Source of the DNA: Allolobophora icterica
Taxonomy: Eukaryota; Annelida; Clitellata; Crassiclitellata; Lumbricidae
Assembly (NCBI GenBank): GCA_963556255.1
Contig: OY744616.1
Location: forward strand, 3,936,405 to 4,000,404
Direction of reading: 5' to 3'
Length of the DNA: 64,000 bases
Program-made: the position numbers and the translations under genes
Shown: one piece after another, positions 18,725 through 38,520 of the stretch
Position numbering within the stretch: the stretch's first letter is position 1
How the letters are laid out: each line of letters opens with the position of its first letter
Notes under the pieces: model-generated
Told to the model about the DNA's origin: nothing
Databases searched by the model: none
What the model saw: the letters and a program-made list of their open reading frames with translations, nothing else

Positions 18725-20507
18725 CCTGAAAGAGAGCATGCTCTGCCTTTTAGCGTCATCACCTTTGTTTTGTCCATATTTATCAGTAATCCCTTTTTCT
18801 CCCCCACTTGCTCCAATCGAGTGACTAACTTCTGTAGTTCCAGTTCTGATCCTGCCAGGAGTACAATATCATCAGCATACCTTAAGTTCGTAATTTTCCT
18901 ACCACCTATCTGCACCCCTCCCTCCCATCCATCCAGCACCTCCCTCATGATCACCTCCGCCATAATGTTAAATAGATTGGGGGAGATCACACATCCCTGT
19001 CTGACCCCTCTCCTGACGCGGAACCCTCTTGATAGTGTTCCCGCCACCTTTACTTTAGCCTCTTGTTTACAGTACAATTTGTTCAGCAAGTTAATAATGT
19101 GTGCCGGATATCCCATCTCCGCCATTACCATCCAGAGCTGTTTGCGAGATGCAATCGAAAGCTTTTTTGAAGTCAACGAAACACATGTATAGCGGCTGCT
19201 GGTGATCATTCATTTTCTGCATTATTATTCTGAGATTTGTAAGCTGGTCACGCGTTCCTCTTCCTCGCCGAAAACCGGCCTGTTCATCTGAAAGCTCTGA
19301 CTCTGTTTTTCCTCTCATCCTCTCTAGTATGATCTTGAGGATGATTTTACTAGCGTGTGACACCAATGCTATGGTTCTGTAGTTTTTACACTGCTTCGAG
19401 TCTCCTTTTTTTGGTATTGGAATGAAGACTGAGTTCACCCAGTCCTCAGGCCACTCCCCTGTTTCCCACATCGCTTCACATATGCGATGCATTTGATCCA
19501 GTGCTGTTTCCCCTGCAGCTTTAAACAGTTCAACTGGAACCTCATCCAGCCCTGCGCTCTTTCCATTGGCCACCTCCTTCATTGCCCGAGCCACCTCCGA
19601 TCTCAAAGGAGCCGGCTCTCGTGTGTATCCTTGCTCATCTTCAACATTTTCAACCCTATCTTCATATAACTCCTCACAGTATTCTCTCCATCGTTCTGCA
19701 ATCCCTTCCTTGTCTGTTATCAATTCTCCTGTTGCCGACTGTATGCCGAACAGCTGCGGTCTGAATTTGCCTGTAAGCGTCTTGACTGTTTGAAAAACCT
19801 TCTTCATGTTTCCCTTCTTGTTTGAGTTCTCCAGTTCGTCACATATTCCTTCAATCTGATTTTGTTTGTCCTCCCTTAACCTTCTTTTTACTTCTGTCTT
19901 CAGTTCTCTGTATTGGTCTTTGTTTCTCTTTTTTGCCTCTCTTTTTGTTTGAATCAATGTGAAGGTTTCTTCGGCGATCCATGAGTTCCTTTTTTGTCCC
20001 TTTTTATACCCAATTGTTTCTTCCGCTGCTTCCAGCAGAATCGTTTTGGTTACCCTCCACAATTCCTCTGGGGTTCTCTCTCCCTCCTCTTCCCTCAGCC
20101 CCTCAAAACGATTCTTAACTTCTATGGAGTAAACTTCTGCCTTTGATCCATATAATTCCTCTAGATTTAATTTTCTTGGTTGCACTGCTTTTTTTATCCT
20201 CTTCAATTTGATCTTCAACTTAGCCATTATCAGATGGTGATCCGTATCACAATCCGCACCCGGGTATGCCTTGCAGTTCCTGATGCTTCCCCTCCATTTT
20301 TGTGCTATTGCAATGTAGTCTATTTGGTTCTTTGTTTTGCCATCCGGTGATGTCCATGTGTATAGACGTCTCGGGTGATGCTTGAACCATGTGTTACTTA
20401 AGCTCAACTCATGATCTGTACAAAAGTCCAATAGTCTCTCACCTGCCTCATTTCCTTCTCCCAACCCCCCTTTCCCTACCACTGCCGCTCTGACATCTGA
20501 TGACTGC
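18725..20507 (-). pseudogene. RTE-like LINE, 3' part (endonuclease C-half and RT)
   Basis: The minus-strand frame continues the endonuclease interrupted at 20507 (RLLDFCTDHELSLSNTW, NQIDYIAIAQKW, DTDHHLIMAKLK). It then runs through RT: IPIPKKGDSKQCKNYRTIAL, GFRRGRGTRDQL, FVDFKKAFD, GVRQGCVISP and the catalytic YADD (LRYADDIVLL). A frameshift between about 19091 and 19209 separates FDCIS from the following WMVMAEMGYP. The frame ends soon after KVMTLKGRA, so the thumb and 3' end are missing. The RTE clade is assigned from these motifs. The element is split by two later insertions; the remaining pieces are 26064-26200 and 27931-28420. Confidence 0.85.
20503..20507. repeat. Target-site duplication ACTGC, left
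   Basis: It matches ACTGC at 26064-26068 exactly and brackets the LTR element. Removing one copy plus the element restores the RTE reading frame. Confidence 0.95.
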
Positions 20508-20939
20508 TGTCGCGGTCGACTCCTTCGATCGCAACGACGAACCAACGAAGGAACTATTAAAAGATCTTTAATTAAAAATAAAGTCGATTAAGTGTAAAGT
20601 AAGTCAACTCGTCTATCAAATATCACAATCGTAGACAGCACACAGGTTGGCTGGTCTCGATTGAACGTTATACGATCAATGTTTCAACGTTTACAAATCT
20701 TCGTCAAAAGGCCCTTAATGTACATCAGGTCTATCTTATATAGAGTTCTCCCGGATTCCAGAACGTTCTGTGACGTCACTGTACTTTTCCCTGGAAAGTC
20801 CTACTGAACACGTATATCCTTGTTGCATGCACCGAACTAATGTTGACAGCTTGCTGCAGAATTTTCCGTGCGTTGTAAACAAGCTTGTTGACGCGTCGGT
20901 TTTCTTCCCTTGATGCATGCACCCGCGTAGACCACGACA
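20508..20939 (-). repeat. LTR (3' LTR of the Gmr1-like element)
   Basis: 432 bp, bounded by TG...CA. By eye it is identical to 25632-26063, including the same 60-codon incidental frame. It contains CTATATAAGATAGACC on the minus strand, a possible TATA box. Confidence 0.95.
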
Positions 20940-20953
20940 TTCCCTCCGCCCTC
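20940..20953 (-). promoter_or_regulatory. Polypurine tract
   Basis: On the minus strand GAGGGCGGAGGGAA directly abuts the 3' LTR, as expected for the plus-strand priming site of an LTR retrotransposon. Confidence 0.8.
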
Positions 20954-21134
20954 AGATGATGACACGTCTTCAGCACCATCCCGAACGGGTCATCACGATC
21001 AAGCCGGGCCTCCAGACTCCATCTCGACACAGCATACACAAACAAAACAAAACACATCAGTTAGTCAATTTATCTATACAATTTGCGGGCTCGATCCTTG
21101 TGTGTCGGGCCATTTCCCCCCTTCACCATCCGAG

Positions 21135-24100
21135 TCACAACCGAGAGAGGAAATCAGCCACCGTGTTCTGACGTCCAGGACGATATCGAAAGTCCACGTT
21201 AAACTCTTGCAATGCTAACGCCCAACGAGTCAGTTTCGCACTCTTAGGGCTTGCATCCGTGAGATAAGACAAAGGACCACGACCTGAATAAATGACCATC
21301 CCTGACAAGAATATCCATGACCTGAATCGTTTAAGTGCCCAAATTACCGCGAAAGCCTCTCTCTCAACTGTAGACCAATGCATCCGTGTATCTGCAAGCT
21401 CAAGGCCAGCAAAAGCAATTGGTTTTTCCCGACCTTCCTCGGTCCACTGAAACAAGCAACACCCAACCGCGGCGGCACCCGCGTCAACACTTAAACCAAA
21501 TTCCTTAGTGAAATCAATGGTATGCAACTGTGTAGCTTTACTGAGATCATCCTTTAACTTATCTAGTGCTTCTTGATGCTTTTGCTCCCAAGGCACCTTC
21601 GTAGGTATGTTATCTCGTGTCAAATCAGTTATTATCCGTGCTTTTTCAGCTAAAGCAGGTATAAAACTTCGAAAGTAACTGAAAAAACCCATAACCTTTC
21701 TAACTTCTTTCTTTGTTGTTGGAGGATGGATATCATTGATCGTAGCGATCTTACCTGGATCAGGTTCAATACAACCTGACCCTACTATACCAAATTCTTC
21801 ATCTTGATCAACAATTACTGAACAGCTATTGATCATCGCTTGTTCGAGTCGTTCATGGTATCGCTTGATCTTATTTGCGTGTAAATGTCTTTGTTTTCCC
21901 TCTATTTCTAGTATATAAGAATATGGGGATTTAACCTTGACTACGGTAGCAGGTCCTTGCCATCGACTATAAAATTTAGAACTACCAAAATCTGGTGCTA
22001 ATACTGCTACTTTATCTCCAACTTCGTATTTTCTGTCAGTACTACGCAAGTTATAATAATCTGCATACCGCTTTGTTTCTATATCACTATAGTAATCTGC
22101 ATAAACCTTCGCGAATTCGAGGTTTTCCTTCAGTGATTGGAGATACTCTTCGGGTGATTTACCTAAGTTAAGAGGTACTTTTCGTTCGCCAGCCCACGAT
22201 TCCTTCAACACACTAAGTGGACCCCGAGGAAGAGTTCCATAAACCATAGTGAATGGCGAAATATGAGTCGTGCCTGAAGGTTTTTCTCTAAGGCTCCACA
22301 GAACAAACGGTAACAATTGGTGCCATCCACGAGGATCAGATTGAGCAAGCTTAAAGATCATGGTTTTCAAGCTTTGGTTGCATCTTTCAACCAATCCAGC
22401 TGCCTCAGGATGTCCAGGGGTATTAAATCTGGGACTACAACCCATTCGCCGCAAGAATTCTTTCGTCAAACGACTGGTAAAGTTGGTACCACAATCAGAA
22501 CTGATGATCCTTGGAATAGAAAAAGTTGTAAAAACTTGCAACAGAGCTTCACAAACTCCCTTTGCATTCAGCGATCTAAGAGGATACGCCATCGGCCAAC
22601 GAGAAAATTTATCCACCAGAACCAGAGCATAATTGTACTGGGGTTTCGATTTGTTGGATTCTCCAGTCACTACCATAGGGCCAATACAATCCATATTTAG
22701 ATGGTTAAAACAGAGTTCATCCGCCCTCGGAATAGGAGTGATAGGGACTCGATCTGCCACTTTAACTGGAGTTCTTAGTTGACAAATTTGACAAGACGCA
22801 CAATATTCGCGAATCCTCTCATCCATTCTTGGAAACCAAAAGTTTAATTTGATCCTGGCTCTCGTTGCCTTAAAAGCCATGTGCCCAGCACATGGGGCAT
22901 CGTGTGCTACTCGCAAGACAACCTCGATTCTATCTTCCGGTAAACATAATTGATTAACCTTATGTCCCATAATTTCCCCTTTGTGGTACAGGAGGTTATT
23001 ATCTATAAAGAAATTATTTTTATTCTGTCTCGCTTGTTGCCAGCAAGATATAAGATTGTGACAATTCTGTTGCTCACGCAATAAAGTATCATTATTCGCT
23101 ACTCCCTCATCAGACTTGAACTCTGTTGACTCAACATCAAGAAAATTATCTGAATCATCAACTAGTTGCTCCTGAGAATATTCATTCACTTCTGACGGCA
23201 AGGATTCGTTGCTGTTACTTTTCTCGATATTAACTTCTAAGTTATCTTCTTCTGCCCCTTTATTTATTTGTACACATCGATCTACGCCAGCTACCATCAC
23301 TACATATTGCGAACTATCCCTTAATAGGTCCACAACATGGGGTGTCAAAATAACCCGTTCATTTAGTTCAGGGACTGCAGCGAACATGACGCACAAAGAT
23401 GGCGCAATGTTTGTCGTTCCTTCCATTGAATTAGCTAATTTCATTTGTAGGTATACTACATCTGCCTTACATCCTTCTCCCTGAAAACCAATTATATTAA
23501 TCCGTTTAATCACGGGTAAGTTTAGTGACTCAATTAATTTCTTATCAATACAACAAATTTCTGCTCCTGAATCAGATAATGCTGGCTGAGAAGGGAGATC
23601 TTCAATCTGTACATTGATATACGACCTCTCGTGTAATCCATCAATACTATTCTCGTATACCCTTACAGCAGTTTCCAACCCTATTGGTTTAGAATTATCC
23701 AATAAATTCCCTTGCTTTACCTGTTCAGGTATCTCATGCAACACGTTGACCTTCTCAACAAATAAGTCGGTCACTTCTTCAGTTGGGTTCCCAGATATAC
23801 AAGTACTCACCTTTTTAGAACTTGGTTTGGTCTGGCACTCCCTTGCCCTATGACCCTTCTGATGACATAGGAAACAGAGACCCTTTACCTTGGCCTCCTC
23901 CTGAGACACCCTCGCACCTATCTTGGCTTCACCCCTTATTTCCGGTTTGGGAGACTTGGGTTGAGCTGTCTGGTTATTGACTTGAACATGTGGTTGACCT
24001 TTCGTCCAATTGTTATACTTCGGTGTCGGATGACTACGGCATACTAAGTCATTCCCACCATCATGCGACGCTACATAAATGTCAGCCGCATTAGCTATGT

Positions 24101-25106
24101 CTTCACAGCTCAACCACTCCTCTTTTTCTTGGGCCAAGATATAATCTAAACAAGCCTTCGACAAGGACTCCTTAAGCCGATCCGCAACCAATAAACTTAC
24201 AAGTTTATCAAACTCATCAGTTATCTTTCTACTTTTCAAATAATACATAAGAGCCACACGCAATTTGGATGAATAGATCGTAAATGATTCGTCCGATGCT
24301 TTGTGCAACGACCAAAATCGGGCTCTAAGATTTGAAGGGCTTATCTTAAACTCCCTTAGCAAAAACTCCTTCAGGAATTTGTAGTCATGGAGCTGTGCCT
24401 CAGTAAGGCGCATGGTTAATGCCTTAGCTCTTTCACTTAAAATGGCTAGCAATAATTTTGCTCTAACATCTTCATCCACCTCATACACATTAAACAAACC
24501 ATCCAAGTGATCAAAGAAACCTGGAATTTCTATAGGGTCGGAAGGAAATTTCCAAAGAATATTCTTAAGGGCATCACTATAACGCTTAGTACGACTTGCT
24601 AAAGAATCTCTAACATTTCGTTCTTCCCGCTTTTCCTTCCTCTCCCTTTCTTCTTTCTCTTTCCGTTCCTTCTTTTCTCTTTCTTCTTTCTCTTTCCGTT
24701 CCTTCTTTTCTTCCTCTCTCCTCTTTTCCTCCCTTTCTTCCTTCTCCTTCCGTTCCTCCCTTTCTCTTTCTTCCTTCTCCTTCCGTTCCTCCCTTTCTCT
24801 TTCTTCCTTCTCCTTCCGTTCCTCCCTTTCTCTTTCTTCCTTCTCCCTTTGTTCTTCATATTTACGGATTTCGAACTCCAGACGGCGCTTCTGCAGCTCG
24901 TAATCCACTCCTGTTGGAGATATTGGACTACCCTTAAATTCCTCTTCCTCTTTTCCAATCTCCATGGCCCATTCTTCCATTAATTGATTTCGATCCCATG
25001 ACATAACATCATCTTCGTCCCTTCCTGCCTTCATAAGATACACCCTAAGGCGCTCAGACGACATTTTGCGAATATTCGCTTGCATCTCTGTTGTCAACGC
25101 TTCCAT
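21135..25106 (-). CDS. Gag-PR-IN-RNase H polyprotein (1323 aa) of the Gmr1-like element
   Basis: Starts with ATG (MEALTTEMQANIRKM). Residues about 70-170 are an E/K/R-rich coiled coil. The gag body follows, with a CCHC knuckle CFLCHQKGHRAREC near 410. The aspartic protease has DSGAE near 508. Integrase has the HHCC zinc motif (HDAPCAGH near 733 and CASCQIC), then catalytic Asp (NMDCIGP, ~805), Asp (SSDCGTNF, ~869) and Glu (LVERCN, ~905). Near residue 1105 the frame passes from the linker (DQDEEFGIV) straight to the end of RT (GSGCIEPDPGKIATI). The roughly 200-residue RT fingers and palm, with the catalytic DD, are absent without a frameshift. RNase H follows (VDAGAAAVG, STVEREAFAVIWAL, NTVADFLSRL). 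Its third acidic residue, normally in a TDHxPL motif, reads SGRGPL. No stop interrupts the frame. Confidence 0.93.
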   Translation of the reverse strand: MEALTTEMQANIRKMSSERLRVYLMKAGRDEDDVMSWDRNQLMEEWAMEIGKEEEEFKGSPISPTGVDYELQKRRLEFEIRKYEEQREKEEREREERKEKEEREREERKEKEEREREERKEKEEREEKRREEEKKERKEKEEREKKERKEKEERERKEKREERNVRDSLASRTKRYSDALKNILWKFPSDPIEIPGFFDHLDGLFNVYEVDEDVRAKLLLAILSERAKALTMRLTEAQLHDYKFLKEFLLREFKISPSNLRARFWSLHKASDESFTIYSSKLRVALMYYLKSRKITDEFDKLVSLLVADRLKESLSKACLDYILAQEKEEWLSCEDIANAADIYVASHDGGNDLVCRSHPTPKYNNWTKGQPHVQVNNQTAQPKSPKPEIRGEAKIGARVSQEEAKVKGLCFLCHQKGHRARECQTKPSSKKVSTCISGNPTEEVTDLFVEKVNVLHEIPEQVKQGNLLDNSKPIGLETAVRVYENSIDGLHERSYINVQIEDLPSQPALSDSGAEICCIDKKLIESLNLPVIKRINIIGFQGEGCKADVVYLQMKLANSMEGTTNIAPSLCVMFAAVPELNERVILTPHVVDLLRDSSQYVVMVAGVDRCVQINKGAEEDNLEVNIEKSNSNESLPSEVNEYSQEQLVDDSDNFLDVESTEFKSDEGVANNDTLLREQQNCHNLISCWQQARQNKNNFFIDNNLLYHKGEIMGHKVNQLCLPEDRIEVVLRVAHDAPCAGHMAFKATRARIKLNFWFPRMDERIREYCASCQICQLRTPVKVADRVPITPIPRADELCFNHLNMDCIGPMVVTGESNKSKPQYNYALVLVDKFSRWPMAYPLRSLNAKGVCEALLQVFTTFSIPRIISSDCGTNFTSRLTKEFLRRMGCSPRFNTPGHPEAAGLVERCNQSLKTMIFKLAQSDPRGWHQLLPFVLWSLREKPSGTTHISPFTMVYGTLPRGPLSVLKESWAGERKVPLNLGKSPEEYLQSLKENLEFAKVYADYYSDIETKRYADYYNLRSTDRKYEVGDKVAVLAPDFGSSKFYSRWQGPATVVKVKSPYSYILEIEGKQRHLHANKIKRYHERLEQAMINSCSVIVDQDEEFGIVGSGCIEPDPGKIATINDIHPPTTKKEVRKVMGFFSYFRSFIPALAEKARIITDLTRDNIPTKVPWEQKHQEALDKLKDDLSKATQLHTIDFTKEFGLSVDAGAAAVGCCLFQWTEEGREKPIAFAGLELADTRMHWSTVEREAFAVIWALKRFRSWIFLSGMVIYSGRGPLSYLTDASPKSAKLTRWALALQEFNVDFRYRPGRQNTVADFLSRL

Positions 25107-25610
25107 TTTTACAAACAGTCAGTCAACAACAATCAACAAAAAAAAACAGACACCACGCGGCAAACCCGCCACACAAAAGGAAAATTCCACAACCCAAAGT
25201 GCAACTATTCAGTATCCAAAGAAGTACACTCGCCAAGTACGCAAAAGCTATACAAGCTCACGCAAGTCTGGCCTCGATCACAACAATGGATCAAATTTCA
25301 AAGAAATAATCAGCAGATATTGAAAGAGAAATAATGGCTGCCTCCCACTCGGCTGCAACTCCACTCTCTTTTCTCCTTCTCAGCCACGACAACACCTAGG
25401 ATCTTACCCGTATGTTGACTGCTGTCTTCTGCTGTCTCAGCCGAACGACGCACTTCGTCCGTCCGACTGTCGTATGCCGATTCACCCGTCTCCCACGGTA
25501 GAAAGGCGTCTCGATCCGCTCGCTGTCTGGAACAGACCGTCTCTTGATCCTCCGGGTTGACTCCTTCCTCCGCCGGCTCGCGTCTTCTTCACCGGATCCA
25601 ACACCGATGA

Positions 25611-25631
25611 TCCCACCGCTGCCACCAATAA
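25611..25631 (-). promoter_or_regulatory. Candidate primer-binding site
   Basis: On the minus strand, immediately after the 5' LTR, TATTGGTGGCAGCGGTGGGA begins a G-rich segment of the type used as a tRNA primer site by many gypsy elements. I cannot say which tRNA it would pair with. Confidence 0.5.
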
Positions 25632-26063
25632 TGTCGCGGTCGACTCCTTCGATCGCAACGACGAACCAACGAAGGAACTATTAAAAGATCTTTAATTAAA
25701 AATAAAGTCGATTAAGTGTAAAGTAAGTCAACTCGTCTATCAAATATCACAATCGTAGACAGCACACAGGTTGGCTGGTCTCGATTGAACGTTATACGAT
25801 CAATGTTTCAACGTTTACAAATCTTCGTCAAAAGGCCCTTAATGTACATCAGGTCTATCTTATATAGAGTTCTCCCGGATTCCAGAACGTTCTGTGACGT
25901 CACTGTACTTTTCCCTGGAAAGTCCTACTGAACACGTATATCCTTGTTGCATGCACCGAACTAATGTTGACAGCTTGCTGCAGAATTTTCCGTGCGTTGT
26001 AAACAAGCTTGTTGACGCGTCGGTTTTCTTCCCTTGATGCATGCACCCGCGTAGACCACGACA
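25632..26063 (-). repeat. LTR (5' LTR of the Gmr1-like element)
   Basis: 432 bp, apparently identical to 20508-20939. It would carry the element promoter; TATATAAG is visible on the minus strand near 25860. Confidence 0.95.
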
Positions 26064-26196
26064 ACTGCTTTCCTACCTTTGCATTGAAATCCCCCATTAC
26101 CATCAGGATATCGTGTTTCGGGATCTTTTTTATCACTGCATCTAACTCCTCGTAGAATTGTTCAACACTTTCTTCTGCTGATGTTGCCGTCGGTGC

Positions 26197-26230: not shown

Positions 26231-27930
26231 AGTAGTTTTATATAGCGCCCCTTCAAGATTGCTTACTCAGGAGCACTCCCAGCCCAACCACGGTCAAATA
26301 ACGCAGTTTTGAGGACAGTAAGAAACAGGGTGAAATGACCAATCGGTAATTGACGGAGCTTTGTAGGAAGCCCATTCCAGGTCATGGGGGCAGCCACAGA
26401 GAAGGCACGGCGCTGCCGTATGGTTGTCCGCACGCGGGGAACAACAAGTTCAGCCTGCGCAGCTGAGCGGAGAGAGGAACGGCGCTGCGAGCATGAGGTG
26501 GGACAGCAGAGCTCCCGCAGGTATGGAGGGGCCAAACCTTCAAAGCACCGCCGGACCAAGGCAGAGATTCGGTAAGTGATGCGCTGTGGGTAGGGGAGCC
26601 AGTGGAGGACATCCCTCATATACGCAGACACTCTGCCAAACTTGGGGATGCGGCCTACAAGGCGGGCAGCAGTACGCAGGATTCTATTCAGGGACTCAAT
26701 CCGGCAGGCCGGGAGTCCATCATATATGGCACTGCAGTAGTCCAATCGAGAAACAACAAAAGCATGGACAAGCGTGGAAGCTGCACCGGGAGACAAAGAA
26801 CGGGAGATCACCTTGAGTTGCCGGAGCTGGTAATAGCAACTGCGGGAGAGAAGATTTATGTGCCGCTTGAATGCAAGTTCCTGGTCCAGGATGACTCCCA
26901 AGTCCCGGACCGAGGTCGAGAAAGCAAGGTGTGGGAATTGCAAGGAAAGAGAAGACAGATCTATTTTACAGAGCTGCTGGGGAGTGCCAAGCCATATAAA
27001 CTGCGTCTTGGCGGGGTTTAGCCGCAGGCGGTTTGAGGACATCCAGGCCTGCAGGGACTCCATGGCATTGGTCATGGTTTCCACCGCTGCAACAGCGCGG
27101 ACAGCCGGGCAGTGTATATAGGCTTGCAGGTCGTCAGCATAGGACTGGCTAAGGACCGACCCAGCCGCCAGCAGGGACCCTAGGTCGGCAGTGTAGATTA
27201 TGTAAAGAAGGGGGCCAAGGACAGAGCCCTGAGGCAGGCCAAATGGAGCAGGGACCCAAGGAGACCTAGTGGATCCGTGGACCACCATGAAGGAGCGGTC
27301 GTGCAGAAAGGAGGTAAGCCAATCAAGAACATTGCCAGAGAAGCCAAAAGAAATGGATAGGCGCTGCAAGAGGATGTCGTGATCAACAGTGTCGAACGCG
27401 GCACTCACATCAAACAGCGCAAGGAGAGTGACCTGAGATCTGTCAATGGCTCCATATATGTCAGATAGCAGGCGGACTAACAAGGTTTCTGTGGAGTGGC
27501 CCTTACGGAAACCGGACTGGAAAGTGGGGAGGAGACCATTTTTGTCAAGGTAGGACATGAGCTGTGTGGCAACAATCTTTTCAATTATTTTAGATAAGAA
27601 TGAAACATTTGCTATTGGCCTAAAATTAGTTGGCTGAGTAGCGTCGAGTCCTTCCGCTTTAATCACTGGAACCACGATGGACTTCTTTTGGCTAGCAGGA
27701 AGAATTCCCTCTTGAAGGGAGCGATTACATAGAACCGTAAGAAACGGTAGGAAGACATCAAGGGTCTCTTGCAGGATGAATGATGGGAGTGGATCCAGTT
27801 CACAGGTTTTCGGCGCTGATGTAAGTATGATTTGACGGAGCTCAACACTGGTAATTGGGCCCAGAGACGGAAGATCACAGCTCGTAGGTGGAAAGACCGG
27901 TGGTGGGCTGTCTGCCGTAGCCTCACGGAC
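26201..27930 (-). mobile_element. 5'-truncated L2/CR1-like LINE
   Basis: It has the 3' sequence GGGGCGCTATATAAAAC and an (AAT)n tail, and is bounded by a short duplication CGTAT (26196-26200 and 27931-27935). It splits the endonuclease of the RTE-like element at the codons for IQIY/APTATS. Other 3' fragments of related elements lie at 3545, 13735, 50211, 62330 and 63565. Confidence 0.88.
26263..27930 (-). CDS. L2/CR1-like ORF2 (reverse transcriptase), 5'-truncated, open
   Basis: The frame is open from the 5' truncation point (codons VREATADSPPPVF) to the stop: 555 codons with no internal start required. RT motifs in order are FRPIANVSFLSKIIEK, FQSGFRKGHSTETLL, ALFDVSAAFDTVDHDILL (palm Asp), FGLPQGSVLGPLLY and the catalytic YADD (QSYADDLQAY). 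They are followed by the thumb (VRDLGVILDQEL) and the C-terminal signature RRAFSVAAPMTWNGLP. The endonuclease is missing through 5' truncation. The absence of any stop or frameshift over 1.67 kb indicates a young copy. Confidence 0.92.
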   Translation of the reverse strand, partial: VREATADSPPPVFPPTSCDLPSLGPITSVELRQIILTSAPKTCELDPLPSFILQETLDVFLPFLTVLCNRSLQEGILPASQKKSIVVPVIKAEGLDATQPTNFRPIANVSFLSKIIEKIVATQLMSYLDKNGLLPTFQSGFRKGHSTETLLVRLLSDIYGAIDRSQVTLLALFDVSAAFDTVDHDILLQRLSISFGFSGNVLDWLTSFLHDRSFMVVHGSTRSPWVPAPFGLPQGSVLGPLLYIIYTADLGSLLAAGSVLSQSYADDLQAYIHCPAVRAVAAVETMTNAMESLQAWMSSNRLRLNPAKTQFIWLGTPQQLCKIDLSSLSLQFPHLAFSTSVRDLGVILDQELAFKRHINLLSRSCYYQLRQLKVISRSLSPGAASTLVHAFVVSRLDYCSAIYDGLPACRIESLNRILRTAARLVGRIPKFGRVSAYMRDVLHWLPYPQRITYRISALVRRCFEGLAPPYLRELCCPTSCSQRRSSLRSAAQAELVVPRVRTTIRQRRAFSVAAPMTWNGLPTKLRQLPIGHFTLFLTVLKTALFDRGWAGSAPE

Positions 27931-28420
27931 CGTATATCTGAATTATGCTGAGGTTCCTCGGTTTTGCACTGATTCTTACCACCAGAATAATTCTATCGTT
28001 AACTGGCTGATATTCTGTAAGGGCATCCTTCATCTTTTTGTGAATCCAGAGTGCCATTCCTCTTTGTCCCTGTGTATCACCACCCGAATAAACAATCATG
28101 TGTCCCTCCGTGGTTGTAAAATGACCCTGTCCGCCCCATCTGACCTCCGACAATCCACACAGCTCGATGTCATGTCTTTCCAGTTCTTTCCCCAGAATCT
28201 GTACCTTTCCTAGTTGAATCATGCTCCTCACATTCCATGTCCCAATATGTAAGATCTTTCGTAACTGGATTGCCGCCTTCTTCTCTACTCCAAAGTCCAC
28301 GGTTTCTTTTCCAGTAGCCGATTTTTCGACCCTGTCCTGGTTGCCCAACAGGGGACGCGGACCTTGGTCACCCGGGCGCCGTCCGAGCCGGTATGAATTG
28401 TGATGTGTATTACTGTCCAT
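27931..28420 (-). pseudogene. RTE-like LINE, 5' part (endonuclease N-half)
   Basis: Starts with ATG at 28420 (MDSNTHHNSYRLGRR). It encodes the start of an apurinic-type endonuclease: HIGTWNVRSMIQLGK (metal-binding Asn region), LCGLSEVRWGGQGHF (catalytic Glu) and RNLSIIQIY, where the L2/CR1-like element interrupts it. This is the 5' end of the element whose other pieces are 26064-26200 and 18725-20507. Confidence 0.88.
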
Positions 28421-28429
28421 GTTGCTGTT

Positions 28430-28680
28430 TGGGAGGTTAAGTTAGAAAGCGATAGATGAAATAAAACGTTGAAGTTAGACACCTCTGATAAGAAGCTACC
28501 TAAAGCTATAAATACAGAGAAAACTCATATTCGAGAAGTCACTAATGTGCAATCGTTTTATAAAGAACGTCGGATGATTACAGCTGTAATAATCATGTCA
28601 AAATAATTTCTGTCGACGTAAACGACTTTTGTTGCCATAAGATGTCGTTAAACTCTGGATCCATTTAAGTTAATATCTAT
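28430..28680 (-). repeat. Dispersed repeat module, reverse orientation
   Basis: Contains AAACGTTGAAGTTAGACACC and TGTTGCCATAAGATGTCGTT, followed by AAACTCTGGATCCAT. These are reverse forms of the AAGGTGTC and ACGACATCTTGTGG words of the dispersed family. Confidence 0.65.
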
Positions 28681-32682: not shown

Positions 32683-35600
32683 TTACAGAATTTGACCTTT
32701 AGTAATTAGTTTAAGTACCCTATACACTTCATTTTGTAATATATTTACTGTTAAAAGGGTTGAAATAGAAATGTCCCTTTTATACAATTGACATTTATCT
32801 CCCAACAACTTCGATATATCTTCTTTTTTACACTCAAGTAGTAAGTGATGAATAGTCTCCTTGACCTGACAGGTATCACATAAACCACTTGAATGTCGTT
32901 TTATAATAAACAGCCTTTGATTAGTATTCGCGACTCCCAGACGTAACCTAGAAATTTGGACTTCCTTATGCCTATAGGGTTCTAAATATTTAATATCTGT
33001 ACTTACAATTGGACAAATAGATTTATAAAAATGACCTCTATTATCGTTAGTATATTCTAATTGCCATTTATTTACTATATACAGTTTCATTAAAGTAAAA
33101 ATTTCTGAAAGTTCAAGATAATTAGTAGAATTAATATGATCAATACTCAGGGCTTCTTTAGCCAAAGTATCTGCTCGATCATTACCTGTCAGGTCAATGT
33201 GACTTGGGATCCAAATAAATCTTATTTGATTGGAATTTAGTCTGTTAATCAGAGACAATAGTTCATTCAATAAATTAGGTCTAGACTGAGAATAAGACTC
33301 CTTAATTGACGTAAGAACACTCAATGAATCAGAAAACAATGCAAATTGACAATTCTTATAACATTCGGAGTTTAAAATCCATTTTACAGTTTCTATAATT
33401 GCAGTCAACTCTGCTGCATAAATACTGGAGCTATTACATAATCTAAATTTTTTATCTATATTTAAACTTGGTACTGTAAAGGCAGCAGAAACAAATTCAT
33501 CTACCTTTGACCCATCAGTATAGATATGTATGTAAGAGTTGTACTTAGAAACTAATTCCAAAGCAGATTGCTTTAAATATTCTGGATGATCAGTTTTCTT
33601 ATTTATTAATTTATTCAAAGTTAAGTCAACCTCTACTTGTTTGTTACACCAAGGAGGTTCAGATGGGAAAGAAGGGCCAATAATAGATGTATTAAGTGAA
33701 GAAAAGAATTCAGAAGTACGAGTATAAATGGAATGCTCCCTACTCTCAGGTGTCCTAAAAACATTTGTCCAGTGGTTCTCCATTGTTGCTGTATTTATGT
33801 GAAATTTATTACCCAAAAATTTTAGTCCCACATTTTATTGAATTTTGGAGTCGTCTTAAATGAAGAGGCAACTCTCCACATTCATTTTGAAGTGCTGCAG
33901 CTGCAGTACCCTTAGGGGCTCCACAACATAATCTAAGTGCCTCAGTTTGGATACAAGAGAGTTTATCTAGGTGCGATTTACAAGCAGAAGAATAAGCAAC
34001 GTCACCATAATCTAAAATAGACCTAATTAATGCCCTATATATGGTTAGGAGAGTTTTCTTACAAGCTCCCCAACCATAGCCACTGATGGCTCTTATGAGA
34101 TTTAACCTCTTTTTGCATTTTTCAATGATATAATCAATATGTGGTTTCCAACTCAATTTACTGTCAAAAATTACTCCCAAGAATTTGACTTCATTTTCCA
34201 TTTTAATTTGTTCTTTATCAATTTTAATAGTAATCCTTGACAAATTATTTCTTTTGGAGAAAAGGACTCCAGTGGTTTTATTAATAGATATTTTAAAACC
34301 ATTTCTATTACACCAATTTTGTATTAAATTGATCGATAATTGAATTTTATTTTGTAATATTTTAACATTTCTATGTCCTAAGTAAATAGCACTATCATCA
34401 GCAAACAGTGACATCTCTACACCATCCACACCTGCAGCAATATCATTTATCATTAGCAAGAATAAAATAGGAGATATTACCGAACCCTGGGGTGTACCAT
34501 TCTGTTGTATACATTTATCAGAAAGTTCTGCCCCAACTTTCACCTGAAAAGTTCTATTTGAAAGAAAGTTTTCAATCCAGTTAAATGTATTACCCACTAT
34601 TCCCAAATTCTGAATTTTATTTAAAAGGGTAGGTACATGTAACATGTCATATGCTCTTTCAAAGTCAATGAAAATAGCCAAAACATGTTCTTTATTTTTA
34701 ATTTTTTTAAGAATATTATCCTGAAGTTTAAGGATTTGATCATTTGTACTTCTATATTTTCGAAAGCCAGACTGATTTTTTGAAATAAGGTTATTTTTTT
34801 CCAAAAACCATTGGAGACGTTTTGTTACCATTGTTTCCATTACTTTACAAATCGTTGGAGTCAATGATATAGGTCGATAAGATTCTGGAACCGAGGCGTC
34901 TTTATTTGGTTTTAATAATGGTAGAATAATGGCATGATGCCAGTCAGTTGGCAATTTCCCTTCCTCCCAGATTTCATTATAAAATATTAATAGGGTTTTA
35001 AGAGCATTTTTATGAAGATGTTTTAACAACTCATAAGGTAATTTGTCATCACCCGGTGACTTATTATTTTTTGCTGATCTTATAGCTTGTTTCAATTCAT
35101 TAAGATAAAACCTCTCATTTAAGATTTCCATTTCATGAACAGGACTACTGTCAATTCTATTAGGGTTATTTTGTAAATTATTATCTTTGATATAATTTAA
35201 GAATTTTTTACTATAATTTTGGGTACTACTAGTACTTGCATAATTGTTAGCTAAAAGATTTGCTTTTTCAAGGTTTGTTTCAGCTATTAATTCATTACGA
35301 TTCAGAGTAGGAATGGAACTATGGGTTGCAATACCATTCATTTTTCTTGCCCATGTCCATACAGAGCCCAATTTTGTCTGATCCGTAAGTTCAGAGCAAT
35401 ATGTTTGCCAACAAGTTTTTGCTTCTGTTTTAAGTGTCTGTTTAACTATAGCCTCTTGTTTCTTGTATTCCAAATAATCATTTAACTCCCTTGTTTTATT
35501 CATTTTATTCCTAAACTGATTTCTTTTATAAATGACTTCACTGCATTTATCACTCCAATATGGTAAAGGTCTAAATTTTTTATTTTTATTCTTTCTATTT

Positions 35601-36460
35601 TTGAGATTTTTACTAGGAATTGATTGATTCGCTATAGAAGTAATACAATCTACTAAATTATTGAAATTAGCGTCAAAATTTTTATCAACTAAAATATCTC
35701 TTGTTATTGAAAATTTACTTAGTTCTTCATAATTCTTCCAATCCGCTTTTTTTAATTTCCATAGATGCATACTTAAATTATACTCTATTGTGATTTCTTC
35801 ATTAATAGTAGTTATAGTAGCATAATGATCCGAGCTCATGTTGCTATTGGTGACATTATGTCTAGCATTAAGAGCTACATCTTGTGAACATATGCTCAAA
35901 TCTATAACAGAATTCAAATTTGATTGGTTTGATGTGATACGTGTAGCTTGACCTGTATTAAGCACAACTAAATTCTTTTCTGTTAATATTTCTTCTATAA
36001 TTTCCCCTCTTTTATTTGTCTTAGAACAACCCCATAATTTATTATGAGCATTAAAATCACCAACAATAATTGATCTTTTATGTGGAAAAATACTCTGAAT
36101 ATCTTCTTTTTTAAATGTATATGAAGGTGTGAAATAAGAATTAAATATTTTTAAATGACCACTTAAAGTTTTAATTTCAATACCTTGAATTTCAATGTTT
36201 GTAACTTCGTCCACATCTAGTACATTAAAGTTTAGGCCCTCTTTTAAGTAAATAGCTAAACCCCCCTTTTCATTACTTGAGCAATCTTTTCGTATAATAT
36301 TGTAGCCATCCAATTTTGGTGATTTAGTTGGATTTTTCAAAAAGGTCTCTTGCAGACATATCACATCCGGTGGAATGTACGACTTCAATATATAATTCTT
36401 AAGTTGGTCTTTATGACCTCGAAAACCACGTGCATTCCATTGAAGAATGGTCAACGCCAT
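32683..36460 (-). pseudogene. I/Nimb-like ORF2: endonuclease, RT and RNase H, one frameshift
   Basis: Probable ATG at 36460 (MALTILQWNARGF). The endonuclease has ICLQETF, IIVGDFNAHNKLWG and SSDHYATI. RT has LLKPNKDASVPESYRPISL, NQSGFRKYRSTNDQ, FIDFERAYDML, NGTPQGSVISP and the catalytic FADD (SLFADDSAIY). A single-base frameshift near 33825-33835 ends the first frame at 33809. The next frame carries RNase H: IYTDGSKVD, IYAAELTAIIET, ALFSDSLSV and TGNDRADTLA give the D-E-D-D set. A zinc-binding segment CDTCQVKETIHHLLLEC follows, to the stop at 32683. Apart from the frameshift all catalytic motifs are intact. The endonuclease, RT and RNase H would nick, copy and degrade the element's own RNA. 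Confidence 0.9.
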
Positions 36461-36478
36461 AGTGGACAAAAAATGAAA

Positions 36479-38520
36479 CTACTGTTCTTTATATCTAAAT
36501 TCTATATCATTATCAAAAAGTAATTTAGACGCTGCATGGCTGATTACAAACTGTGCCTGTTTTTTTGACTCAGCCTTTGCAATAGTTGCCAATACGCCAA
36601 GAACAAAGGACACTTTTATCTTCATAATTGGGTCATAATCTTCTACTGTGTTATTCGCTGGCTTGCTGTGATATACTGCCTTGTAATCTTTGTCATTGAA
36701 TGACAAAAACCTTTTGACTACATCATCAGAAGAGGTTTGTACAGTAGAATTAATTTGCACATCAGTTGGTGTTTGTATATCTAATGAAGTATTTATTACT
36801 CTTGTTTGGGTTTCTAGTCCAGTTTTAACTTTTGAAGAATAGGTGGAATTGTTTGTTTTAAGAGCATTGACAGGAACATTCTGATGCTGGACCTCATCAA
36901 CCTTGACAATAGCATCAGCAAGAGTAACGTTCTGCTCTGCTCTTATTTTCAGAGCAGATTGAATCTTTAAATACATTGGACAGCTTCTGTGGGCAGCACT
37001 ATGATTCTGACCACAGTTAGCACATCTTAATTTAGTTTTATCTGGGCAGTCAACATAAGAGTGGCTACCACTGCATCTACTGCACACAACTTCTCGTCTG
37101 CAAAATAATTTAGAGTGACTAAACATTTGGCAATGATCACATCTCAAAGGTCTAGGCACAAAAGGATTAATTCTATACCTTCTGCCATTCACTTCCAAAA
37201 ATTCTGGCAAAACAGTCCCTTTGGGATAAGCAATCAAAGTCGCTTTGCTAAATTCGGAATTACCAATTCTATGGATATGATGGGCTCCATTTTCCAATGC
37301 TATTTCATTTAAATTCTCTTGACTTTCAAGTAAACCAAAGACTACCCCTTTAACAAAGTACTCGTTTTCCTGTCTTTTCACAGGAAGTGGTTTGTTATAA
37401 ACAGGTTGAGAAGTCAAAGAAAAGGGAATACTAGTCTTCACAGGCTTATCATTCAATGATTGTATCTTAAGAAGTTGATTTTTCTGAGCTTCATCTTTAG
37501 CAATTATTTTCAGTACACCTTGTTGAGTTACAAAAACCTTGTCAACCTCTCCCCTGGTCTTCTCAACTATTTCCTTGTTGAGTTGACGAGGCATGTGTTT
37601 GAAGTAGTTACGAAGATCATCTTTATGCCCATCTATATACACAGTTCGTGACTGAACCTCCCGTAAGAGCTTCTTTTTTTCCTCAGTCAGAGGAGGACGG
37701 GATTTATGGTTAATTTTGTTTTCAATAACTTGGTCAGTTATTGATTTATTTACATCATTTATCACCTCATTTGTCAACATTGTGGAATTATTCATGGTAA
37801 TGATCTTCTCTTGTCTTACCATATTTGCATTTGAAACTTCAATCATTTCAATATCACTTAAAACCTGAAAATTTGCATCATCTTGACATGCAGCAGATTC
37901 ATCAATACATATCACATCAACTGTTACACATTTCTGAGAAACAGATTTCTCAGCGCTATCAATGACCGGACTTTATAAATACTTGTCTTGAGTCTCTTTT
38001 TCGGGTGTGCTTGTGGGTGGCCATCCATCCTACACCGCCGATCCTGGAGCTTCTCAGTAGGGACTGCCTTCAAGAAGTCATCTTTAATCAATGTTTTTGT
38101 ATAATTCCCATTTATCACCAGACCTTGCCGGTTTTCCAATGAATATGATCGTCTTTTTGCCGTTGACTCAAAGTACGATTCAAAATGTGTGACATTATCA
38201 TGGCAAAGATTGTCGGAGGAATTACATAAGAAATTTCTCATATCTTCAACAGAATTTGATTTATAGTTACCACGTTTGTCTTCATCTGCACCTTTACCGT
38301 TTATGTTTCCAGAAGTTTCGGCGAAACCCGTTTGGTATGAATCAGTTACACTGGCTGAAGACGACAAGATTTCCTGGTTTTCAAGTAGTACGTCGGACTT
38401 ATGTTGATTGTCTGATTTAGGTGTAGGCCTATCAAGGATATTCTTTGACATCGAAACATCGCCTGCATTTGAAGAGCTCGATGATGTATTGAGAGGTCTC
38501 TTTCTCTTGCCTTTTCCCAT
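36479..38520 (-). pseudogene. I/Nimb-like ORF1 (nucleic-acid-binding), one frameshift
   Basis: ATG at 38520 (MGKGKRKRPLNTSSSSS), basic and Ser-rich. The first frame stops at 37924, and a second, overlapping frame carries on from upstream of 37915 to the stop at 36479. A one-base indel near 37960-37975 explains the break (the continuing frame reads PVIDSAEKSVSQKC). The second part has three zinc knuckles in a row: CDHCQMFSHSKLFC, CSRCSGSHSYVDC and CANCGQNHSAAHRSC. ORF1 proteins of this group coat the element RNA. The stop lies 18 bp upstream of the ORF2 start. Confidence 0.85.

Follow-up and report, generated by a model that had tools for sequence, protein, structure and literature searches.

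Retrotransposon copies without a reverse transcriptase domain and clustered A-to-G changes in an LTR retrotransposon family of the annelid Allolobophora icterica

In the mouse, the 1Δ1 subtype of the intracisternal A-particle (IAP) elements carries an internal deletion with a fused open frame; it is non-autonomous, uses the proteins of other IAPs in trans and has given rise to many new insertions (PMC6466679). Here we describe a long terminal repeat (LTR) retrotransposon that lacks the reverse transcriptase (RT) domain, together with its family in the genome of Allolobophora icterica. It lies in a stretch of 64,000 nucleotides (contig OY744616.1, positions 3,936,405 to 4,000,404; in the following called the window). 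Copies of the family without the RT domain are called RT-less, those with it RT+. We consider it probable that an RT-minus allele of this family was amplified, with its RNA reverse-transcribed by RT in trans and undergoing recombination with that of RT+ copies.

IAP 1Δ1, the best documented deletion subtype of such kind that we encountered, is the closest known system, resembling this family in its internal deletion with a fused open frame. Its deletion removes 1.9 kb from gag and pol, whereas the present family loses the RT domain and keeps gag, protease (PR), integrase (IN) and RNase H. A cis role of the fused protein is reported for IAP 1Δ1 (PMC6466679). BARE2 of barley, which is parasitic on BARE1, is likewise the non-autonomous partner of a family with a single open reading frame (ORF). 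BARE2 lacks Gag, not RT, and its packaging in particles of the partner has been reported, whereas for the RT-less copies we infer it (PMC3735527). Wheat RLG_Sabrina and RLG_WHAM with RLG_Wilma likewise show non-autonomous populations, without RT and integrase, beside an autonomous family; the homology there is down to a few motifs, whereas the RT-less and RT+ copies described here are near-identical and mixed (PMC9744471). Finally, the Gmr1 clade of Ty3/Gypsy likewise has integrase upstream of RT; the accessible part of that account makes no mention of RT-less subfamilies, and the likeness here is by domain order (PMC8220671). A literature search at the level of titles and listings turned up no subfamily with a deletion of RT only. 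The present family is distinct from the known systems in that it has lost the RT domain while the other domains stay, in its mixing with RT+ copies and in its putative editing record.

The deletion junction and its copies

The element lies on the minus strand of the window at 20508..26063. As the first-pass annotation of this stretch had claimed, its two LTRs, which have TGT...ACA ends, are identical (432/432 bp), and ACTGC stands on both flanks as an exact 5-bp target-site duplication (TSD). The uninterrupted frame of 1323 codons, also part of that annotation, is found on the minus strand at 21135-25106 and runs from gag through PR and IN to RNase H, with RT absent. A Pfam scan of this frame placed H2C2 at residues 723-779, rve at 824-900 and RT RNase H at 1173-1302. 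CCHC and protease gave weak matches under the cut-off, and RVT_1 had no match anywhere in the frame. H2C2 and rve are located upstream of RNase H, and RVT_1 was found between IN and RNase H in 2/2 RT+ copies tested, which is the Gmr1-type order. The label Gmr1-like is taken from the first-pass annotation and from this domain order, not from an RT tree. The element belongs to a very young Ty3/Gypsy family of high copy number in which IN precedes RT. An Rfam scan and a tRNA scan of the window were both empty. The features of the element are as follows.

20503..20507, no strand: target-site duplication ACTGC, left copy (flank sequence)
20508..20939, minus strand: 3′ LTR, 432 bp (432/432 identical to the other LTR)
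20940..20951, minus strand: polypurine tract candidate directly upstream of the 3′ LTR (by eye)
21135..25106, minus strand: gag-PR-IN-(RT missing)-RNase H open frame, 1323 codons (ORF and Pfam)
21201..21590, minus strand: RNase H domain, catalytic motif damaged in the window copy (Pfam and alignment)
21258..21480, minus strand: A-to-G hypermutated stretch with 24/26 of the tail A-to-G changes of the window copy (family comparison)
21782..21789, minus strand: deletion junction, single TATAGTAG kept from an 8-nt direct repeat (comparison with RT+ copies)
22407..22637, minus strand: integrase core match (Pfam; D, D, E motifs by eye)
22770..22940, minus strand: integrase zinc-binding domain, H2C2 (Pfam)
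23457..23615, minus strand: retropepsin-like protease with DSG motif (weak Pfam match under cut-off; motif by eye)
23832..23879, minus strand: CCHC zinc knuckle, weak, under cut-off (Pfam)
24600..24877, minus strand: Glu/Lys/Arg-rich gag repeat, length-polymorphic among copies (copy comparison)
25612..25627, minus strand: primer-binding-site candidate downstream of the 5′ LTR (by eye)
25632..26063, minus strand: 5′ LTR, 432 bp (LTR comparison)
26064..26068, no strand: target-site duplication ACTGC, right copy (flank sequence)

The metagenome protein P0001 is 93% identical to the window copy and has RT present. The alignment of the two stops after residue 1106 and restarts 271 residues on, which agrees with the earlier claim that RT is missing between integrase and RNase H. 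The spacing from border to border is 840 nt in three RT+ copies compared and 27 nt in an RT-less copy, a loss of 813 nt or 271 codons, in frame. In 2/2 RT+ copies tested from the same genome, a complete RVT_1 match (profile positions 2-205 of 205) falls within this segment. The 8-nt direct repeat TATAGTAG bounds the segment on either side and occurs a single time in the deleted form. Judging from this junction, the deletion most likely originated when RT jumped between the direct repeats on RNA.

We searched the genome (1.12 Gb; repeat counts may be lower bounds) for the junction with a 38-nt pattern, allowing up to 3 mismatches and taking the reversed pattern as control. The first-pass annotation had proposed such a check for other copies with the same junction and named a single deleted copy or an assembly error as what would refute its reading. 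The RT-less junction occurred 155 times (81 + 74) and the RT+ border 951 times, with 0 occurrences for the control in both cases. RT-less copies account for 155/1106 border or junction matches (14%), or about one copy in seven. At 20/20 junction loci that were cut out, the gap is present and the RT-less copy runs through the 3′ LTR. A one-off deletion or an assembly error, for which no support was found, is refuted by this search, by the completeness of these loci and by the separate target duplications of 12/12 copies described below; we regard its probability as negligible.

The junction boundaries are fixed and precise across the 155 occurrences, as they might also be if RT-less copies were reverse-transcribed spliced RNAs with the RT domain as an alternative intron, and BARE1, a one-ORF element, is reported to favour Gag through splicing (PMC3735527). 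However, the cut can be placed in nine ways within the 8-nt repeat, and 0/9 placements give GT-AG, GC-AG or AT-AC ends. Canonical splicing of the RT segment was rejected on these sequences, and an origin from spliced RNA is very improbable.

The condition of the copies was assessed in several samples. From the first-sample loci (n=20), L026 and L028 were dropped, having no match to the internal region, and from the RT+ border loci (n=20) L103 and L111 were dropped with the anchor absent, leaving 18 usable. Sixteen LTR pairs were the best LTR matches and hence a sample picked for LTR identity; in this sample 16/16 pairs are identical and 14/16 elements have their own 5-bp duplication. The remaining two form a tandem that shares an LTR and has CCCTT at both outer ends. 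At G000:C3:38939887-38952359, three LTRs lie 6086 bp apart, with two near-identical RT+ elements in tandem and one LTR in common.

Twelve RT-less copies, the first in the junction list, were exact matches on C1 and C2 for which the 5′ part was fetched. All have a 5-bp TSD (12/12), the LTR pair is identical in 11/12 (one pair has 1 difference), and the frame is open in 11/12, L065 having a frameshift near the gag start. Together with the window copy, which is open, and the RT-less copy C3:53.18, 12/14 RT-less frames are open. Among RT+ copies, read piece by piece, 11/14 frames are open; this count leaves out C20, which has lost IN and part of RT, and scores C1_77.58 as open despite a changed stop codon. 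The three others are C1_7.57, in which no start was found, and C3_29.48 and C1_82.11, which have frameshifts. C1_7.57 (G000:C1:7568111-7573977) is an RT+ copy without most of the 5′ untranslated region (UTR) segment and without the usual start.

The D, D, E and zinc motifs of integrase are present in 20/20 RT-less copies and the RNase H motifs in 19/20, and the protease motif DSGAE in 12/12 RT-less copies with that part fetched. Among the copies examined, those without RT are young and for the most part intact; an internal deletion with fixed boundaries has left one fused open frame in many copies. RT-less insertions, the window copy included, bear the marks of retrotransposition in their TSDs and matched LTRs, and the RT+ borders with their mostly open frames provide a coding-competent partner in the same genome. 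The use of RT in trans, which the first-pass annotation had proposed, would be the natural reading of these counts.

Related proteins in public collections, among the best 120 of 169 matches, include P0001-P0003 with 93, 92 and 85% identity, all with RT present. No relatives were found in viral_contigs and genome_contigs at the search sensitivity used. Three further entries among these 120 differ in structure or assignment. P0025 (contig of 4.4 Mb; 8 member sequences) is 55% identical and lacks RT and part of RNase H with other boundaries, which suggests that pol-deleted forms may have arisen independently in related families. In P0120, from an ENA contig of 108 kb, a gag-PR part ~95% identical to the element is followed by ~550 residues and finally by rearranged pol pieces. 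The stretch of ~550 residues is coiled-coil-like and has no Pfam match above the cut-off; P0120 is a possible case of host-gene capture or a merged gene model. P0021, with 71% identity, is filed under an archaeal metagenome-assembled genome (Nitrososphaeraceae) on a 2.9-kb contig and is probably eukaryotic DNA contamination.

Haplotypes, linkage and the spread of the deletion

The part of gag from the start codon through the Glu/Lys/Arg-rich repeat is 420-693 nt long depending on the copy and serves as a haplotype tag. RT-less L060 and RT+ C2_25.40 have an identical haplotype of 561 nt, and three further RT-less/RT+ pairs have 1, 3 and 5 differences. In the majority of the remaining segments, these four closest pairs nonetheless differ. 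Mean pairwise differences within RT-less copies, within RT+ copies and between the two were 4.5, 4.7 and 4.6 for the 5′ UTR, 3.2, 4.1 and 3.7 for gag, and 2.0, 1.7 and 1.8 as well as 1.7, 0.9 and 1.3 for two parts of integrase. The values for the first tail part (12.9, 7.7 and 10.4) are inflated by the hypermutation described below, and those for the LTR (5.6, 2.0 and 5.0) by the choice of RT+ copies. The haplotypes and distances common to both groups rule out a closed, separate RT-less lineage. Thus, of the half-autonomous lineage suggested in the first-pass annotation, the deletion common to many copies stood, but the separate lineage did not, the haplotypes being mixed with those of RT+ copies.

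In the favoured scenario, RT would have jumped between the two TATAGTAG repeats on RNA, causing the in-frame loss of its own domain, and the deletion form would then have spread as an RT-minus allele. RT-minus RNA would be packaged alongside RT+ RNA and copied by RT supplied in trans. The resulting copies would be inserted with normal target duplications, the step that is directly seen in the insertions. Template switching between co-packaged RNAs would keep RT-minus and RT+ forms in one gene pool, as the shared haplotypes suggest.

The main alternative is that the deletion recurs. RT would often jump between the TATAGTAG repeats, and many RT-less copies would be fresh dead-end products of RT+ parents, needing no helper of their own. 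The haplotypes common to RT-less and RT+ copies, some of them near-identical in the gag repeat, speak for this, as does the linkage of the deletion to nearby sites, which is weak and not above that of some distant sites. On the other hand, the deletion in C20, one of the 16 LTR-pair copies, which runs from integrase into RT, also joins short similar sequences by eye, yet its junction has 1 occurrence in the genome compared to 155. C20 alone is the yardstick for other deletions in this comparison; the deletion of C1_7.57 was left out of the genome count. The divergence of the four closest gag-repeat pairs in most other segments also argues against recurrence, although template switching could cause it as well. 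Moreover, the window copy shares a gag-repeat haplotype with RT-less C3:53.18 (5 differences) and is closer to it than to sampled RT+ copies, with at least 24 differences to the 14 copies in the comparison, which are RT+ or C20; from RT-less L064, the window copy and C3:53.18 differ at 14 and 12 positions of the gag repeat. On balance, we find recurrent deletion doubtful, though it deserves serious weight. Should the 8-nt repeat give rise to the deletion more than once, the RT-less copies may include direct products of RT+ parents that were never templates themselves.

Linkage was tested at 45 sites of the tail, with 22 copies of the RT-less and 35 of the RT+ type, and six sites had p<0.06 (all p values uncorrected). 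The near ones among them lie 45, 81 and 84 bp from the junction, with p values of 0.053, 0.028 and 0.029. An initial reading, that linkage fades within ~100 bp of the junction, was not upheld by this fuller test. The weak linkage lowers the odds of a single amplified allele, and of the balanced pair discussed below, and raises those of recurrent deletion.

Several further points weigh against the amplification of one allele. Three distant sites, 720, 747 and 761 bp from the junction, are also among the six (p values of 0.021, 0.021 and 0.028), and in the list-drawn samples (20 RT-less and 18 RT+ copies) 1/29 sites is below 0.05 (81 bp, p 0.048). The comparison over the gag repeat covered 14 of ~951 RT+ copies, and an unsampled RT+ copy may share an RT-less haplotype. 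A gag frameshift is present in 2/14 RT-less copies (L065 and C3:53.18). At G000:C4:84380668-84414409, four RT-less junctions follow each other on the same strand at intervals of 11.22 to 11.25 kb; they probably represent a tandem segmental duplication carrying the element, and the number of 155 probably includes segmental duplicates.

Variants in gag and integrase of the RT-less copies were divided into shared ones, with 2 nonsynonymous to 8 synonymous, and singletons, with 17 to 6. For the shared RT-less set the binomial p is 0.0009 under an assumed neutral nonsynonymous fraction of 0.72, and 0.051 for all variants; this fraction assumes transitions weighted 4 to 1. RT+ copies are without such a contrast, with 11 to 9 shared and 18 to 16 single variants, the protease segment being counted for RT+ copies only. 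Because variants appear to flow between the groups, the contrast is no proof that the RT-less proteins are used, and recombination with RT+ copies could yield the same pattern.

An unlikely extension of the favoured reading is that selection keeps the RT-minus allele. A one-ORF element would make Gag and Pol equally, and the RT-minus product would bring Gag, PR, IN and RNase H into the particles but no surplus RT. The two structural alleles would then be a balanced, co-packaged pair, and the A-to-G zone described below would be a genomic record of double-stranded RNA repeatedly formed at the 3′ end, for instance by pairing with antisense RNA that originates on the side of the 3′ LTR.

A-to-G clusters next to the 3′ LTR

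According to the first-pass annotation, the window copy keeps its own gag, protease and integrase. These lie in the open frame, but RT is not the only loss of this copy: RNase H is damaged by A-to-G changes, which had gone unreported. The domain lacks one aspartate of the catalytic motif that is invariant in 22/22 relatives compared. In the RNase H segment, 14/14 residue differences to P0001 are explicable as sense-strand A-to-G changes, compared to 19/84 elsewhere. Over the 850-nt tail, the window copy has 28 differences to the family, 26 of them A-to-G, and 24 of these fall within 21258-21480.

We called a copy hypermutated if it had at least 9 A-to-G changes in 250 nt. Such clusters were found in 5/57 tails, namely in the window copy, RT-less C3:53.18 and L063, and RT+ C1_77.58 and C2_39.90. 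Four of the five came from the LTR-matched sample; 0 of 18 RT+ border-list copies and 1 of 20 junction-list copies had a cluster. The first two RT-less copies had suggested that editing is limited to RT-less copies, which was rejected with 3/22 RT-less and 2/35 RT+ tails. Pooled over the five copies, 139 A were changed and 219 unchanged, with 7 other changes and at most one T-to-C per copy. A 5′ G before the changed A is depleted (15/139 vs 82/219, p=1.2e-8) and a 5′ T enriched (p=1.1e-5). The clusters span ~21506 to 21011 and adjoin the 3′ LTR, all within ~570 nt of it.

Separately from the spread of the deletion, some RNAs of the element, among them the one that gave rise to the window copy, would have been hyperedited from A to I at their 3′ end by an ADAR-type enzyme before reverse transcription. 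Mutation type, strand and neighbouring bases point to such editing, which would account for both the RNase H damage in the window copy and the genomic A-to-G clusters. The A_deamin domain gave 19 PF02137 matches over the cut-off at five genomic loci; the PF02137 family also takes in relatives of ADAR.

One observation counts against this part of the explanation, as no structure forming double-stranded RNA was found in the edited stretch (sense-strand folding z=0.08 vs 20 shuffles). This value speaks against an intramolecular hairpin as editing substrate. With no unusual folding of the sense strand, its partner would probably be a different RNA, such as an antisense transcript arising on the side of the LTR.

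The clusters could also be put down to ordinary divergence, to RT error or to recombination with an older copy. Many A/G sites are common to several copies. Between the window copy and L063, numerous edited places coincide, which may reflect a common site preference or partial inheritance, and part of the cluster could be inherited as a block. However, the nearly single mutation type on one strand, its restriction to one zone and the avoidance of a 5′ G argue against such origins, and outside the zone the 5′ UTR, gag, protease, integrase and RT segments have at most 3 A-to-G changes in any copy. We consider them quite unlikely.

Runs of A-to-G changes in a short stretch have been described at the 3′ LTR of bovine leukaemia virus (PMC8025556), and likewise for avian leukosis virus and human T-lymphotropic virus 2 (PMC12925331). 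In contrast to these proviral clusters, those found here are in genomic LTR retrotransposon copies, lie in RNase H and the 3′ UTR and extend up to ~370 nt. No report of an A-to-G editing record in a Gypsy-type LTR retrotransposon was found in the open-licence literature, as far as the accessible text goes, including PMC2873906, PMC8025556 and PMC12925331. The clusters in this family indicate that genomic retrotransposon DNA can record putative ADAR-type editing.

Surroundings of the element and significance

The element appears to have inserted into a long interspersed nuclear element (LINE), as its flanks are, by eye, two parts of an endonuclease/RT frame. Nested LINEs occupy 26263-28441 and 19091-20545 of the window, and the LINE struck by the element is seemingly also broken by a LINE-like frame at 26263-27942. 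Further away, the LINE at 32683-37972 looks near-intact; by eye, its three long frames are a zinc-knuckle ORF, an endonuclease-RT and an RNase H. A host gene of the window had 14 matches, none of them named.

The clean loss of RT in about one in seven copies of a young family, in which gag, protease and integrase mostly remain open, lends itself to testing whether retroelements with defects ride along as passengers or act as partners. With its RT-minus and RT+ forms, the family is also a natural test of how far the RNAs of different elements share particles.

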